Source: Poseidonibacter lekithochrous
Lineage (GTDB): Bacteria > Campylobacterota > Campylobacteria > Campylobacterales > Arcobacteraceae
Direction: 5' to 3'
DNA: 64,000 nt
NCBI RefSeq assembly: GCF_013283835.1
Contig: NZ_CP054052.1
Location: 434,001 to 498,000 of the forward strand
The notes under the pieces are model-generated. The model was not told the DNA's origin and searched no databases. It saw nothing but the letters and a program-made list of their open reading frames with translations. Numbering within the stretch: the stretch's first letter is position 1; every line of letters begins with the position of its first letter. This document shows positions 48,938 to 61,892 of this stretch, one piece after another. The position numbers and the translations under genes were made by a program.

Positions 48938-48991
48938 AATATATTTAATAAGAAAAAATAACTTGGCGGTTGCAATTTTTTTATTCATATA
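48927..48991 (+). promoter_or_regulatory. Hairpin carrying the AACTTGGCGGTT motif upstream of a DMT gene
   Basis: TATGTGAATAAAA (48927-48939, running across the preceding stop codon) can pair with TTTTATTCATATA (48979-48991); an alternative inner stem is AATAAGAAAA with TTTTTTTATT. Either way the 12-mer AACTTGGCGGTT at 48960-48971 stays in the apical loop. The same 12-mer occurs upstream of putA. The gene at 49023 starts 31 bases after the stem. Confidence 0.5.
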
Positions 48992-49022
48992 GTAGCTTAA
49001 GATAAATAAAAAGGATTAAGTA

Positions 49023-49910
49023 ATGATATTAGATAACAAACTTTATGTTTTACCTCTAATCCTTTTTGTAATATTACTTTGGGCTGGTAACTTCGTATCA
49101 ATTTCATATATTGTTAAAGAGATGGATGTTTTTACAGCCTTAACATTGAGATTAGCAATGGTAGCAATACTTTTATTTCCATTTTTAAGAAGATTACCTA
49201 ATCAAAGTGATTTTTTGGTTTTATTTTTAGCTACCACAGCAATAGTACCTGGACATTTTGGATTACTGTTTTTATCTATACTGAATACTAAAAGTGTAGG
49301 GGGTATATCTGTTTTAATTCAACTATCTATACCTTTTTCTATTTTATTTGCTTGGCTTCTTTTTAAAGATAGACCAAGTAATTTAAGAATTGTTGGTTTA
49401 CTTATTGCTTTTACTGGGATTGTATTTTTATTATATGATCCAAGTTTATTAGATAGTAGAAATGCTTTCATTTTGGCTATTGGTTCTGCTTTTTGTTTGG
49501 GAATATATTTTATTATAATTAAGAAATTAAAAAATGTTAAGAGTTTAGCTGTAATTGCATGGACATCTTTATTAGGAAGTCCTATGATGTATATATTTAT
49601 GTTTTATACAAATAATTCATTTTCTTCAATATTGGAAATACAAAATAATAGTACTCTTGTAGCATTTTGTTATACAGTAATTGCAGGAAGTATTTTAGGA
49701 CATGGGCTTTGGGCTTATTTAGTAAAAACACAAGATATTAGTTTTATTTCTCCTTTTTTATTACTTGTACCTATGTTTGCTGTAGTTTTAAGTAGTATTT
49801 TTTTAAACGAAGAAATTACATTTAGTTTTATTATTACATCAAGTGTGATTGTTTTTGGGATTTTTTTAGTATTTATTTCAAAGAATGTCAAAAATAATTT
49901 AAAGGATTAA
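49023..49910 (+). CDS. DMT (EamA) family permease, divergent copy
   Basis: A protein of 295 residues with ten hydrophobic segments. It begins LYVLPLILFVILLWAGNFVS, and the second repeat starts near FILAIGSAFCLGIYFIIIKK. It is only distantly related to the two look-alike permeases flanking the island. It lies 1 base before the trans-3-hydroxyproline dehydratase, so it may move a hydroxyproline isomer or a related amino acid; that is inference. Confidence 0.78.
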   Translation: MILDNKLYVLPLILFVILLWAGNFVSISYIVKEMDVFTALTLRLAMVAILLFPFLRRLPNQSDFLVLFLATTAIVPGHFGLLFLSILNTKSVGGISVLIQLSIPFSILFAWLLFKDRPSNLRIVGLLIAFTGIVFLLYDPSLLDSRNAFILAIGSAFCLGIYFIIIKKLKNVKSLAVIAWTSLLGSPMMYIFMFYTNNSFSSILEIQNNSTLVAFCYTVIAGSILGHGLWAYLVKTQDISFISPFLLLVPMFAVVLSSIFLNEEITFSFIITSSVIVFGIFLVFISKNVKNNLKD

Positions 49911-52745: not shown

Positions 52746-52979
52746 ATGGCGAAGCAAAAAAATAAAAGAACAGTTATACAAAAAGTGATTAACAATCATT
52801 TAAAAGGTAATAAAAAAGAGATTTCTCAATTAACGATAAAAATTGATAAAAGATTAGATAATGCCTTAGTAACATTAAGTCAATCTTTGAATTTGTCAAA
52901 AAATAAATTGATTGAAGAAATTCTTTTTGAAAGCGGAAGTATAGAAGAAGTTGATGAAAATTATATAGGTGATGAATAA
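52746..52979 (+). CDS. Small ribbon-helix-helix type protein
   Basis: A protein of 77 residues. After a basic N-terminus (AKQKNKRTVIQKVI), a strand QLTIKIDKRL and two helices (NALVTLSQSLNLS, KNKLIEEILFESG) give the ribbon-helix-helix layout of small DNA-binding proteins; the tail is acidic. Its stop overlaps the next start (TAATG). Autoregulation at the upstream repeats is plausible. It could be an antitoxin-like partner of the following gene or a free regulator, for example of putA, which lacks its own DNA-binding domain. Function is not established. Confidence 0.65.
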   Translation: MAKQKNKRTVIQKVINNHLKGNKKEISQLTIKIDKRLDNALVTLSQSLNLSKNKLIEEILFESGSIEEVDENYIGDE

Positions 52980-53638
52980 TGAATAGATTTCCTCCTCAAA
53001 ACGAGATTATTGATTCAATTTTAAAAGGTATGATTACAGCTAAAACAAATTATACTTTTTGGACAGCGGATGAATTATATTTATCTTATGCCCCACCTAA
53101 GTTTTTAACTATTCATGTATCTCAAGAGATTGCAAAGCTTGAAAATTCACCTGAAATTTTCATTGATGCAACAATTGCAGATATATTAAGATGTTCACTA
53201 CCTAAAAGAGACTCTTTTAGATGGTTTATGAGTGAAAACAATATTACTCAAGATGTTATTTGTCTTACTTTAGATGAAAGATTTGAGCATAAAAGTGATA
53301 ATGATTCAATCTCAAAAGTAATAATGAGTATTCGAAATGGTGTTAGAAATGCACAAGATGAATATAAACATGATATTGATCTTATATGTAAGATGTTATC
53401 TAGAGATAAAAAAGAAGAATCAACACTTGATTATGGTGTTTTTGCTTTTTATTTAGATATCTCAAACACAGCTAGAAAAAAATCAACTAGAAGAATTGAA
53501 GAGATTGTTGAGTCTTTTGACAAAATAGTAGCTTCACATAAAAATTTAAAATCAAGTTTCAAAGGAGGCGATATTAATATCATCGAAAACATCGGCGAAT
53601 GGTGTGTAGGTTGCTATGTAATTGAGCCTACATTTTAG
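52979..53638 (+). CDS. Protein of unknown function paired with the ribbon-helix-helix gene
   Basis: A protein of 219 residues that I do not recognise. It is soluble, without signal peptide or membrane segments. The N-terminal half is rich in aromatic residues (TNYTFWTADELYLSYAPP), the middle has a helical part (DSISKVIMSIRNGVRNAQDEY), and the end has GEWCVGCYVIEP. No known catalytic motif is evident. It is translationally coupled to the small upstream gene and lies just before livK with a 42-base gap. Confidence 0.7.
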   Translation: MNRFPPQNEIIDSILKGMITAKTNYTFWTADELYLSYAPPKFLTIHVSQEIAKLENSPEIFIDATIADILRCSLPKRDSFRWFMSENNITQDVICLTLDERFEHKSDNDSISKVIMSIRNGVRNAQDEYKHDIDLICKMLSRDKKEESTLDYGVFAFYLDISNTARKKSTRRIEEIVESFDKIVASHKNLKSSFKGGDINIIENIGEWCVGCYVIEPTF

Positions 53639-56687: not shown

Positions 56688-57466
56688 TGAAATATGTATT
56701 AGAAATTGAAAACGTTTCAAAATTCTTCCATGGATTAGTTGCTATTGATGATTTAACTATTAAGGTTAAGCCTGGTCAAATTTATGGGATTATTGGTCCT
56801 AATGGAGCTGGTAAAACTACACTTTTTAACTGTGTAACAGGGATTTATACTCCTGAGCAAGGAACTATTAAATATAAAGGTGAAGATATCACTGGAATGG
56901 AACCTCATAAAATTGCTCAAAGAGGAGTTTTAAGAACTTTCCAAAATATTAGATTATTTAAAGAAATGAGCGTTGCTGAGAATATTATCGCAGGAACTCA
57001 TACTAAGTCTAATCAAAAATGGTACCACTCAATTGTTCATACTCCTGCTTACAAAGCAGATGAGTTAAAACATTGGAAGAAAGTAGAAGAGTTAATGGAA
57101 TTCTTTGGATTAAGTGCATATGCAGATACTCCAGCTGGAGATTTATCATATGGAAATCAAAGAAAAATTGAAATGGCTAGAGCACTTGCTGCTAATCCAG
57201 AGATTTTAATTTTAGATGAGCCCGCAGCTGGTCTAAATGAAAATGAAACAATTGAATTAACAAACATCATCTTAAAAATTAAAGAGATGGGTCTTGGTAT
57301 TATGATGATTGAACATGATATGGAAATGGTAATGAAGTTAACTGATTACATTACTGTTATTAACTTTGGAAAAGAAATTTCTCAAGGTTTACCTTCATTT
57401 GTTCAAGATGATCCAAGAGTTATTGAAGCTTATATTGGAACTGACGATGATGAGGAGGAAGAATAA
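56687..57466 (+). CDS. livG: LivG-type ABC ATPase
   Basis: A protein of 259 residues: Walker A GPNGAGKTTLFN, signature LSYGNQRKIEMARAL, Walker B ILILDEPAAGLNENE and switch MIEHDMEMV. The insertion around WYHSIVHTPAYK between Walker A and the signature is typical of LivG. The tail is acidic (DDDEEEE). Overlaps livF by 1 base. Confidence 0.93.
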   Translation: MKYVLEIENVSKFFHGLVAIDDLTIKVKPGQIYGIIGPNGAGKTTLFNCVTGIYTPEQGTIKYKGEDITGMEPHKIAQRGVLRTFQNIRLFKEMSVAENIIAGTHTKSNQKWYHSIVHTPAYKADELKHWKKVEELMEFFGLSAYADTPAGDLSYGNQRKIEMARALAANPEILILDEPAAGLNENETIELTNIILKIKEMGLGIMMIEHDMEMVMKLTDYITVINFGKEISQGLPSFVQDDPRVIEAYIGTDDDEEEE

Positions 57467-58188
57467 TGGTTAATAATGAAATCTTATTAGATATAAAAGA
57501 CCTTCATGTATCTTATGGTGCAGTATCAGCTATTAAAGGTATTAGTCTTAAAGTTAGACGTGGAGAAGTAGTTACAATTCTTGGTGCTAATGGTGCTGGT
57601 AAAACTACAACTTTACAAACTATTTCAGGTCTTTTAAAACCAAAATCTGGACATATTGTTTTTGATAAAAATGATATTACAAAATGTGAAGCACATGATA
57701 TTGTATCTTTAGGTATGTCTCACTCTCCAGAAGGAAGAAGAGTTTTTGGAATCTTAACAGTTGAAGAAAACTTAATGATGGGTGCTTATACACTTAAGGA
57801 TCATGATAAAGAGACTTTAGAGTGGATTTATGACATTCTTCCAAGGTTAAAAGAGAGAAGAAAGCAACTTGCAGGAACGCTTTCAGGTGGTGAGCAACAA
57901 ATGCTTGCAATTGGTAGGGCAATTATGTCTAAACCAAAACTATTAATCCTTGATGAACCATCTTTAGGATTAGCTCCAATTTTAATTAAAGGTATTTTCA
58001 AAGCTGTTAAAGAAATTGCCCAAAGTGGAGTAACTGTTTTATTAGTAGAACAAAATGCAAAAGCTGCTTTAAAATTAGCAGACAGAGCTTATGTACTTGA
58101 AGTAGGTAAAATTACTCATGAAGGTACAGCTGAAGAATTGTTAAATTCAGAGACGATTCAAGAAGCATATTTAGGTAAAAAACATTAA
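57466..58188 (+). CDS. livF: LivF-type ABC ATPase
   Basis: A protein of 240 residues: Walker A GANGAGKTTTLQ, MSHSPEGRRVFGILTVEENL, signature LSGGEQQMLAIGRA, Walker B LLILDEPSLGLAP, switch LLVEQNAKAAL. It is the partner ATPase of LivG and the last gene of the transporter. No T-run terminator separates it from putA, only the structured leader, so read-through into putA is possible. Confidence 0.93.
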   Translation: MVNNEILLDIKDLHVSYGAVSAIKGISLKVRRGEVVTILGANGAGKTTTLQTISGLLKPKSGHIVFDKNDITKCEAHDIVSLGMSHSPEGRRVFGILTVEENLMMGAYTLKDHDKETLEWIYDILPRLKERRKQLAGTLSGGEQQMLAIGRAIMSKPKLLILDEPSLGLAPILIKGIFKAVKEIAQSGVTVLLVEQNAKAALKLADRAYVLEVGKITHEGTAEELLNSETIQEAYLGKKH

Positions 58189-58208: not shown

Positions 58209-58284
58209 TAAGTAGATAGAGGGACAAACTTGGCGGTTCCTTCCCTCTAGAGCACATTTAAAAGCGTGCGCTCTAAGCTACTTA
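58209..58284 (+). ncRNA. Candidate structured leader RNA (three-way junction) of putA
   Basis: Three stems can form together. P1 is TAAGTAG (58209-58215) with CTACTTA (58278-58284). P2 is TAGAGGGA (58217-58224) with TCCCTCTA (58242-58249), with AACTTGGCGGTT (58227-58238) in its loop. P3 is GAGC (58250-58253) with GCTC (58270-58273), extended by CAT/GTG beyond one mismatch. The block is G+C-rich in AT-rich surroundings and lies 38 bases before the putA ATG. TCCTT at 58238-58242 is complementary to the ribosome site AAGGA at 58312-58316, a possible switching partner. This is a paper fold, not a computed one. Confidence 0.6.
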
Positions 58285-58322
58285 AAATTTATTTAAAAAC
58301 CAATTAAATTTAAGGACAACCG

Positions 58323-61300
58323 ATGAGAAATGAACAAGAACTTATAACTTCATCAATAAGATTAGCAGAAAAATGGCAAAACAGAGCAACTGAGCTTGTT
58401 AGTGACTTCGATAGAGAATTCTATGTAAAAATGAATAAGATGTTAGAACATCCAAAAGATAAAGCTTTATTAATTGAGCTTATGGATCAGTGTTTTAGAG
58501 CTGAATCTAATGCAAGAATTGCAAATCAGATTATATTCTTATTAGAAAAACATGGGATGGCACATTTCTTTACAACAAAAGATAAAACATTATTATATCT
58601 TTTCCAAAATATAGGAAAGTACCTACCAAATTTATCAGTTCCAATGTTTGTTAATCAAATTAGAGAAGATACTAAAACTGTAGTAATTAAAGGTGAAGAA
58701 GACATCTTTAACGCACATCTTAAAAAAAGAAAAAGCGAAGGTACTAGAGTAAATATCAATCTTATTGGTGAGGTTGTTCTTGGTGAAGAAGAAGCTGATG
58801 AAAGAATGGAAAAATATTTAAAAGCAATTGCTAACCCAAATGTTGATTATCTTTCTATTAAAATTTCAACAATTTTCTCTCAAATTAATCCTTTAGATTT
58901 CGATAAAACAGTAGCAATTTTAGTTAAGAAATTAACTAAAGTATATGCACAAGCTCAAAAGCATCCATATATTGCACCTGATGGAACTAAGTCAAATAAA
59001 TTTATTAACCTTGATATGGAAGAGTATAGAGATTTAGCTATTACTGTTGAAGTATTTAAACAAACTTTAGATTTACCACAATTCAAAGATTTCTATGCTG
59101 GTATTGTATTACAAGCATATTTACCAGATTCTTTCCTATGGCAAAAAGATTTATGTGATTGGGCAAGAACTAGAGTACAAAATGGTGGCGCTGCAATCAA
59201 GTTTAGACTTGTAAAAGGTGCTAACATGGAGATGGAAGAAACTGAAGCATCTCAAAAACACTGGGAAATGGTAACTTACGTTGATAAAGCGGATACTGAT
59301 TCAAACTACAAAAGAATGGCAAGATATGCTTTAGAGCCAGAAAATGCTCCTTATATGCATATAGGAACTGCTTCTCATAACTTATTTGAATTAGCTTATG
59401 CTACAACAATGGCAGAAGTGAATAAAACAGGTCAATACCATACTTTAGAAATGTTAGAAGGTATGAGTGAGTCTGCAAGACTTGCAATTAAAGAAATTTC
59501 TAAAGAAGTAATTTTATATGCACCAACTGCATCTAAAGAGCAGTTTACAAATGCTATTGCATATTTAGTAAGAAGACTTGATGAAAATACAGGTCCAAAC
59601 AACTTTATTAGATATTCATTTGGATTAACTGTTGGTTCAAAAGATTGGAAAATGCAAGAGAGATTATTTGTTGAGTCTTTCGAAGTTGAAAAAACATCTT
59701 TTGTTGGTTCTAAAAGAACACAAAATAGATTAGAAGAAAAATGGGATGATTTCTCAAACTCATCTTTTGATACAAACTCTTACCACCCAGAAGCTGATAC
59801 TGACTTTATTTTAGAAAAGAATCATGAATGGGCTAGAAATATTGTTAAAAAATGGAAACATAATGCCAATACTGTTCATACTATTGCTCCTGTAGTTGTA
59901 GGTGGAGAAGATTTAGTTGGTGATAGAAAAGTTTATGATGCAATTGATAAATCTCAAATTGAAAACAATGTACTTGCTGGTAGATTTGCAATGGCAAATG
60001 AAGCTGATATTAAAAAAGCAGTACAAGTAGCAAAAGATGATGTTGATGGGTGGAGAGATTTAACTCATGCACAAAGACATGAATTATTAAAAGCTGCTGC
60101 AATTAAATTTAGAGAGCGAAGAGATGACTTAATTGGTGTTGCTGCTGCTGAAGTTGGTAAAGTATTTACAGAAACTGATGTAGAAGTTTCTGAAGCAATT
60201 GACTTTATTGAATTCTATGCTCATTCAGTTAGACATTTAGACGAATATGAAAACTTAGAGTTATCAGGTAAAGGTGTTGGTGTTGTAGTACCACCATGGA
60301 ACTTCCCTGTAGCTATTCCTGTTGGTGGAGTATCATCTGCATTAGCAGCTGGTAATACAGTTATTATTAAACCAGCATCTGTTGCTGCTTTATGTTCATA
60401 TGAAATGTGTAAATGTTTCTGGGATGCTGGAATTTCTAAAAATGTTTTACAATTCCTTCCTTGTCCAGGGGCACTTGCAGGTGAGCATTTAATTCCTAAT
60501 AAAGATATTGATTTCTTAATTTTAACAGGTGGTGAAGATACAGCTGCAACTATGTTAGAAACTAGAAATGATTTATTCTTATCAGCTGAAACTGGTGGAA
60601 AAGATGCAACTATTGTTACAAATATGGCAGATAGAGAACAAGCGGTTAAAAATGTATGTCAAAGTGCATTTGGTAACTCAGGTCAAAAATGTTCAGCTAC
60701 TTCATTATTAGTTTTAGAAGAAGAAGTATATAACGATGCAGGATTCAAAAAAGCTTTAATTGATACAGCAGCTTCTATGAATGTTGGTTCTATTTGGGAT
60801 TTCCAAAATAGAATTGGTACATTAGCAAATAAAGTAAGTGGTAACTTAGAAAAAGCCTTAAATGAATTAGAAGGTAATGAAACTTGGGCTTTAAAACCTG
60901 AATACGTAGATAACAACCCTTATTTATTAAAACCATCAATCAAATGGGGAGTTTCTGAAGGAAACTTTATTCATATGAATGAATTATTTGGACCAGTTTT
61001 AGCTGTAATTAAAGCAAATGACTTAAAACATGCAGTTAATATTGTAAATGCAACTGGATATGGACTTACTTCTGGAATTGAGTCTTTAGATGAAAGAGAA
61101 GTAGAGTACTGGAAAGAAAACTTACAAGCTGGAAACCTTTATGTAAATAGAGGAACTACTGGTGCAATCGTTCTGCGACAACCATTTGGTGGAATGGGTA
61201 AATCAGCAATTGGTGCTGGTAGAAAAGCTGGTTTCTATAACTATGTAACTCAATTTGTTGATGTTACAGAGAAAAAAGCTCCTGTAACTACTAAAAAATA

Positions 61301-61892
61301 TAATAATGATTTAACTAGATTTATTGATAAATGTAAGTCAAGTCAAAATAATAAAGAAGATTTTGAAAAATTAGCTGTTTCATTACAATCATACCTTGCA
61401 AACTTTGATTCAGAATTCTCAATTGCAAAAGACTATGCAAATGTTAGAGGGGAAGATAATCACTTTAAATATATTCCACTTGACAATGTATTAATTAGAG
61501 TATCTTCTGATGATACTATTTTCGAAACAGTTTCTAGAATTTTAGCTGCTAAAGTAGCTGGTGTTAGATTCAAAGTTTCTATTGAAAATAATAAATTAGT
61601 TCATTCATTCTTAGCTAATGCAAAAGAATTATTTGGATCAAGAGATGGTTTAGTAGAGCAAACTGAAAAAGAGATGATTAGATCAATTGCTAACTTTGAT
61701 AGAGTAATTTATTCTGATATCTCTAAAGTATCTGATATGGTATTTAAAGAGTCAAGTGAGTCTTTAACATTTATCGTTAGACAAAAACCTATGATGGAAG
61801 GAAGACTAGAGCTTCTTAACTACTTTATTGAGCAATCAATTTCTCATTCTTACCATAGATATGGAAATATTGGGGCTAGAGAATTAAACTAA
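58323..61892 (+). CDS. putA: Bifunctional proline dehydrogenase / P5C dehydrogenase
   Basis: A protein of 1189 residues. The first third is the FAD proline dehydrogenase barrel (DYLSIKIST, FRLVKGANMEMEETEA, IGTASHN). Residues about 520-1000 are the aldehyde dehydrogenase with Glu756 (SAETGGKDATIV) and Cys790 (SGQKCSATS). About 170 further residues form a C-terminal extension. There is no N-terminal ribbon-helix-helix domain, unlike E. coli PutA, so it should not repress its own gene. It takes proline to glutamate, including proline from 3-hydroxyprolines. A strong terminator follows. Confidence 0.95.
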   Translation: MRNEQELITSSIRLAEKWQNRATELVSDFDREFYVKMNKMLEHPKDKALLIELMDQCFRAESNARIANQIIFLLEKHGMAHFFTTKDKTLLYLFQNIGKYLPNLSVPMFVNQIREDTKTVVIKGEEDIFNAHLKKRKSEGTRVNINLIGEVVLGEEEADERMEKYLKAIANPNVDYLSIKISTIFSQINPLDFDKTVAILVKKLTKVYAQAQKHPYIAPDGTKSNKFINLDMEEYRDLAITVEVFKQTLDLPQFKDFYAGIVLQAYLPDSFLWQKDLCDWARTRVQNGGAAIKFRLVKGANMEMEETEASQKHWEMVTYVDKADTDSNYKRMARYALEPENAPYMHIGTASHNLFELAYATTMAEVNKTGQYHTLEMLEGMSESARLAIKEISKEVILYAPTASKEQFTNAIAYLVRRLDENTGPNNFIRYSFGLTVGSKDWKMQERLFVESFEVEKTSFVGSKRTQNRLEEKWDDFSNSSFDTNSYHPEADTDFILEKNHEWARNIVKKWKHNANTVHTIAPVVVGGEDLVGDRKVYDAIDKSQIENNVLAGRFAMANEADIKKAVQVAKDDVDGWRDLTHAQRHELLKAAAIKFRERRDDLIGVAAAEVGKVFTETDVEVSEAIDFIEFYAHSVRHLDEYENLELSGKGVGVVVPPWNFPVAIPVGGVSSALAAGNTVIIKPASVAALCSYEMCKCFWDAGISKNVLQFLPCPGALAGEHLIPNKDIDFLILTGGEDTAATMLETRNDLFLSAETGGKDATIVTNMADREQAVKNVCQSAFGNSGQKCSATSLLVLEEEVYNDAGFKKALIDTAASMNVGSIWDFQNRIGTLANKVSGNLEKALNELEGNETWALKPEYVDNNPYLLKPSIKWGVSEGNFIHMNELFGPVLAVIKANDLKHAVNIVNATGYGLTSGIESLDEREVEYWKENLQAGNLYVNRGTTGAIVLRQPFGGMGKSAIGAGRKAGFYNYVTQFVDVTEKKAPVTTKKYNNDLTRFIDKCKSSQNNKEDFEKLAVSLQSYLANFDSEFSIAKDYANVRGEDNHFKYIPLDNVLIRVSSDDTIFETVSRILAAKVAGVRFKVSIENNKLVHSFLANAKELFGSRDGLVEQTEKEMIRSIANFDRVIYSDISKVSDMVFKESSESLTFIVRQKPMMEGRLELLNYFIEQSISHSYHRYGNIGARELN

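Follow-up and report, generated by a model that had tools for sequence, protein, structure and literature searches.

The putA leader of Poseidonibacter lekithochrous is, to judge from its sequence and those of its relatives, one member of an undescribed class of structured RNAs, and it is a strong riboswitch candidate. It occupies positions 58210-58283 (+ strand) of the window, the whole stretch of 64,000 nucleotides that was analysed, corresponding to bases 434001-498000 of a 3.57 Mb genome in a single contig. We consider it somewhat probable that the leader is a cis-acting translational ON-switch of putA within a liv-putA mRNA, responding to a small molecule, likeliest L-proline or a near relative. 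Because no Rfam family matches it and ligand binding is the defining feature of a riboswitch, it is named a riboswitch candidate and not a riboswitch; restriction to one bacterial family and almost one gene would also suit a protein-binding leader.

The 74-nt block lies between a livF-like ABC ATPase gene (57466-58188, + strand), whose stop at 58188 is 21 nt before the motif, and putA (58323-61892, + strand), the putative controlled gene, which encodes proline dehydrogenase/glutamate semialdehyde dehydrogenase with Pro_dh and Aldedh domains. The three-way junction of P1, P2 and P3 that had been proposed here is found at its place and is the predicted minimum free energy fold of 58209-58285 (-25.4 kcal/mol, z = -3.2), equal stability being reached in 0 of 200 shuffles. 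This energy ranks 7th among 5114 windows of 77 nt on both strands, and 23rd after GC correction. The leader had also been described as rich in G+C, and its content of 45% versus 15% and 21% in the flanks, reached by 1.1% of 76-nt windows, agrees with this. P1 is formed by AAGTAG (58210-58215) and CTACTT (CUACUU in RNA; 58278-58283), with 92% of its cells paired across 32 distinct rows; its 3′ strand is common to P1 and to the putative anti-Shine-Dalgarno arm. P2 pairs TAGAGGGA (RNA UAGAGGGA; 58217-58224) with TCCCTCTA (RNA UCCCUCUA; 58242-58249) and encloses the loop ACTTGGCGGT (58228-58237; ACUUGGCGGU in the RNA fold), in which ACTTGGCGG is better conserved than any other stretch of the motif. 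P3 is the hairpin GAGC-A-CAT...GTG-C-GCTC (58250-58273) with the loop TTAAAAGC (RNA UUAAAAGC). All of these elements are on the + strand. The whole motif, a candidate aptamer, is matched by the broader covariance model R2 with 88 bits (E 1.5e-20 in the window), a score obtained with a model that includes this very copy.

The stems are conserved and covary among relatives, one of the points on which the original prediction was staked. In 32 distinct rows aligned to R1, a covariance model built from 11 homologous leaders, standard pairs fill 90.2% of the cells versus 79.6% in shuffled and at most 54% in slid alignments, and double-sided change is seen in 16 of 21 pairs versus 7.8 in shuffles. 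Since the kinship of the sequences inflates such counts, the changes were reconstructed on a tree. With an alignment fitted to the structure, this yields 19 compensatory double changes versus 3.0 +/- 1.7 expected under a null in which columns evolve independently and the number of changes is kept equal; the null maximum is 9, and 0 of 1000 nulls are as high. P2 accounts for nine of these events and P3 for seven (each reached in 0 of 400 nulls), and P1 for three (reached in 17 of 400). An R-scape-like per-pair test finds no individually significant base pair, so covariation is claimed in the aggregate only. The most conserved positions are unpaired: the P2 loop ACUUGGCGG, whose nine positions are each 92-100% conserved, AA in the P3 loop and an A in J3/1. 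Kissing between the P2 and P3 loops was considered and dropped, as inspection of the alignments reveals no consistent complementarity.

The motif is confined to the Arcobacteraceae and is closely tied to putA. BLASTN against 60 related genomes returns about a dozen homologous leaders, every one before putA. A search of 104 Arcobacteraceae genomes with R1 identifies 30 loci at E < 0.001, all directly before putA and with an identical arrangement of Shine-Dalgarno and start. The core is intact in 28 of them and decayed in G090 and G111; further decayed cores were found by hand in G022, G089 and G027. Of the 104 genomes, 48 have putA itself, among them every genome with an intact motif. No match occurs outside the family among 399 genomes of the order and 397 of the phylum under strict filters that weak members could escape. 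When 84,980 species genomes were scanned for the pattern, ten true putA leaders were recovered (Poseidonibacter, Malaciobacter, Arcobacter and uncultured or unplaced MAGs); another six matches, in other phyla, have no P2 stem and are apparently due to chance. Weak model matches within the family were likewise rejected as false positives, being located inside one homologous 155-aa coding gene (G107, G001:C43, G027:C25, G120:C5) or inside other ORFs (G103, G111:C18).

Several genomes in which putA has no motif present other contexts. In G023, G122, G102, G103 and G108-110 the gene is preceded by a promoter-like region that contains an imperfect inverted repeat, and in G123 and G124 a terminator-like hairpin follows livF. 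The repeat (AGTACTAAAAGTAGTACT-like; L084, L086, L089, L090, L093, L095, L096) is located just upstream of the motif-less putA and looks like a transcription-factor operator. In a minority of genomes, most of which have a decayed motif or none, a small ORF (MRHKRRLQSKVQDLHKGQ...; MTHKIKMKGKVQDLHKATH in L101) lies ahead of putA, after the upstream gene (L081, L082, L083, L061, L043, L101); it has no NCBIfam match.

In 29 of the 30 loci the motif starts 5-68 nt after the end of livF, and the gap is as short as 5-8 nt in G119, G118 and G120. A promoter would have little or no space in such a gap. Control at this point would therefore act either on a polycistronic RNA or on a transcript initiated at a promoter within livF, and RNA-level control of putA alone makes sense. 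A scan of the + strand between 57900 and 58500, in itself weak evidence, found no sigma-70-like promoter.

Downstream of P1, a conserved AU stretch of the form CUUAAAAUU-n(16)-AAUUUUAAGGA leads to the putA Shine-Dalgarno AAGGA (58312-58316, + strand), which is kept in relatives at a distance from P1 that is constant in most genomes. The arms of this stretch can pair, covering the AAG of the Shine-Dalgarno. In the window they form a putative anti-Shine-Dalgarno hairpin, P4 (58281-58314, + strand), in which CTTAAA (58281-58286) pairs with TTTAAG (58309-58314); both arms are conserved and their spacing is near-constant. The P4 arm requires the CUU that also ends P1, so the ribosome site would be open when P1 is formed and covered when P1 is melted. 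The mean predicted energy of the arm-arm duplex is -5.2 kcal/mol versus -0.9 with shuffled arms, and the P1 and P4 states lie within 2 kcal/mol of each other in 23 of 28 leaders, as compared with 30% when the linker is shuffled. P1 is predicted to dominate without ligand in G011, G113 and G009, and P4 is weak in G106 and G117. No compensatory changes were found in P4, which is AT-rich, and the platform thus rests on conservation and energy. The original prediction had the Shine-Dalgarno covered by TCCTT at 58238-58242. Both sequences are where it placed them; their pairing was dropped because TCCTT is unconserved, occurring only in the closest relatives (G009, G004, G006) and being replaced elsewhere by GTTACTCCCC, GTTGCTCCCC, GGCATATCCCC and similar sequences. 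The P1 3′ strand and the AU hairpin take its place as the proposed cover.

The motif is also found near other genes of proline metabolism. Two congeners, G002 and G003, carry a second copy. R2 includes that of G002 but not that of G003, and it detects both about 7 kb downstream of putA: in G003 with E 1.0e-4, and in G002 with E 1.3e-8, a score that is not independent because this copy is part of the model. With R1 the G002 copy scores E 0.024, within the false-positive range; it is accepted because of its stem, its loop, its downstream platform and the parallel G003 copy outside the model. The P2 stems of the second copies differ (AAGGGAAAGGA/UCCUUUCCCUU in G002) and the loop is identical. Competition between P1 and P4 is predicted in these leaders too. 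Downstream of the G003 copy are the genes for citrulline hydrolase (ctlX), ornithine cyclodeaminase (ocd) and arginase; downstream of the G002 copy are ocd and the arginase gene, with a remnant of ctlX. In G002 (L103) ctlX is seemingly deleted before ocd save for 14 codons (MSLIQSLKIKRNNK), and after this apparent deletion the RNA leader fronts short ORFs and ocd. At both second loci a short ORF intervenes between the Shine-Dalgarno and the first enzyme gene, which makes the coupling less direct.

Within the window there are exactly two occurrences of the 12-mer AACTTGGCGGTT (58227 and 48960), as had been noted. Its second occurrence forms the loop of an AU hairpin in a degenerate copy (48943-49007, + strand; R2 24 bits, E 0.0012 in the window) that has a P2-like stem and no P3. 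This copy is located between the gene for cis-3-hydroxyproline dehydratase and that of a DMT-family transporter (49023-49910), in a hydroxyproline cluster that also encodes 4-hydroxyproline epimerase and a trans-3-hydroxyproline dehydratase/proline racemase-like protein, the latter below family cut-offs. The syntenic locus of G112 lacks it, and shuffled sequences fold no less stably; the copy may therefore be dead or of recent origin. Ornithine cyclodeaminase makes proline, the 3-hydroxyproline dehydratases open a route to it through pyrroline-2-carboxylate, and PutA oxidises proline to glutamate. Since the second copies precede ornithine- and hydroxyproline-related genes that feed proline, proline or a close metabolite is the likeliest ligand. 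The proposed conserved three-way-junction leader is tied to putA and also to other proline-related genes.

A gene pair of another kind recurs in these neighbourhoods. At 52746-53638 of the window (also L109, 7898-8775, and L097), a gene for a 77-aa protein is followed by one for a 219-aa protein that belongs to no known family. Together they precede livK in the window and the ctlX-locus motif in G002 and G003, and a homologue of the 219-aa protein is encoded directly before putA in G012. The G003 homologue of the 77-aa protein weakly resembles ribbon-helix-helix proteins (PF01402, E 0.0042, below cut-off). The pair is possibly a stand-alone transcription regulator of proline genes.

Purine, THF and TPP riboswitches are of the three-stem-junction kind with a translational platform. 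The putA leader shares with them a closing stem and two hairpins, a conserved unpaired core, and a closing stem predicted to compete with a Shine-Dalgarno cover. It differs from them in having no Rfam family, in its loop ACUUGGCGG, in its position nearly always before putA and in its restriction to one bacterial family. The original prediction had proposed an Rfam search as a check; at gathering score Rfam 15 has no match over the window, where chance matches of up to E 5 occur near the leader, and none over the leader in loci of eight divergent relatives. Autorepression by trifunctional PutA through a ribbon-helix-helix domain would likewise couple putA expression to proline, and it depends on a DNA-binding domain at the N-terminus together with an operator in the promoter. 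PutA of the window differs in this respect: as had been claimed, a Pfam search matches only Pro_dh and Aldedh and finds no DNA-binding domain. No validated natural riboswitch for proline is known to us, and a phrase search of 5.39 million papers did not find 'proline riboswitch'. GC-IGR riboswitch candidates resemble the leader as GC-rich structured intergenic elements of AT-rich genomes upstream of metabolic genes. The survey that took in Arcobacter sp. L left genus-confined Arcobacter elements unnamed; its text names no putA motif, and an earlier unnamed sighting there is possible (PMC6429828).

Several features of the leader could also be read in other ways. The narrow distribution, the clustering of conserved letters in one hairpin loop, the retention of that hairpin alone in the degenerate copy at 48943-49007 and a PutA without a DNA-binding domain would all fit an RNA-binding regulator, possibly a moonlighting PutA, whose recognition of the P2 loop hairpin would set the balance between P1 and P4. 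Such a reader is rather unlikely: a covarying three-way junction exceeds the needs of a hairpin site, no candidate protein was identified, and the degenerate copy is not conserved. The stable fold and its position almost always directly 3′ of livF would fit an intercistronic element that acts constitutively, by stabilising or processing the liv-putA mRNA, and holds putA at a fixed level, no signal being sensed. This is improbable, as it leaves unexplained the conserved unpaired letters, the balanced alternative fold and the second copies away from livF.

The exposed, conserved loop of nine letters could in principle be the target of a trans-acting small RNA. However, the other ACTTGGCGG sites on either strand of the genome are all in coding genes, there is no intergenic exact complement, and a target site would need neither P3 nor the junction, which makes this reading very improbable. 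Slighter still is the chance of tRNA-like or leader-peptide control, where the loop would mimic the anticodon arm of tRNA-Pro for prolyl-tRNA synthetase, or a ribosome would read proline codons. The loop CUUGG does resemble the UUUGGGA anticodon loop of this genome's tRNA-Pro, but only UUGG is common to both, and it is not invariant (GG is changed to GC in G008 and G020); the stems are unrelated to tRNA, and there is no Rfam T-box or tRNA match. As for a leader peptide, no conserved start codon or ORF is seen by eye within the motif in 30 copies.

For the ligand-responsive ON-switch that we favour, the mechanism would be as follows. A small molecule would bind the junction and the P2 loop and stabilise P1, and the stabilised P1 would free the putA Shine-Dalgarno, turning translation on when substrate is plentiful. 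This direction fits a catabolic gene. Candidate ligands would be L-proline or, instead, pyrroline carboxylate, hydroxyproline or ornithine. The more specific proposition, that the leaders constitute a natural riboswitch class for L-proline or its first oxidation product that turns on translation of proline catabolism inside a polycistronic mRNA, is a real possibility that we put forward tentatively. If true, the finding would give a protein amino acid for which, to our knowledge, no riboswitch is known a class of riboswitch-like RNAs, and it would account for substrate control of a PutA that has no DNA-binding domain.
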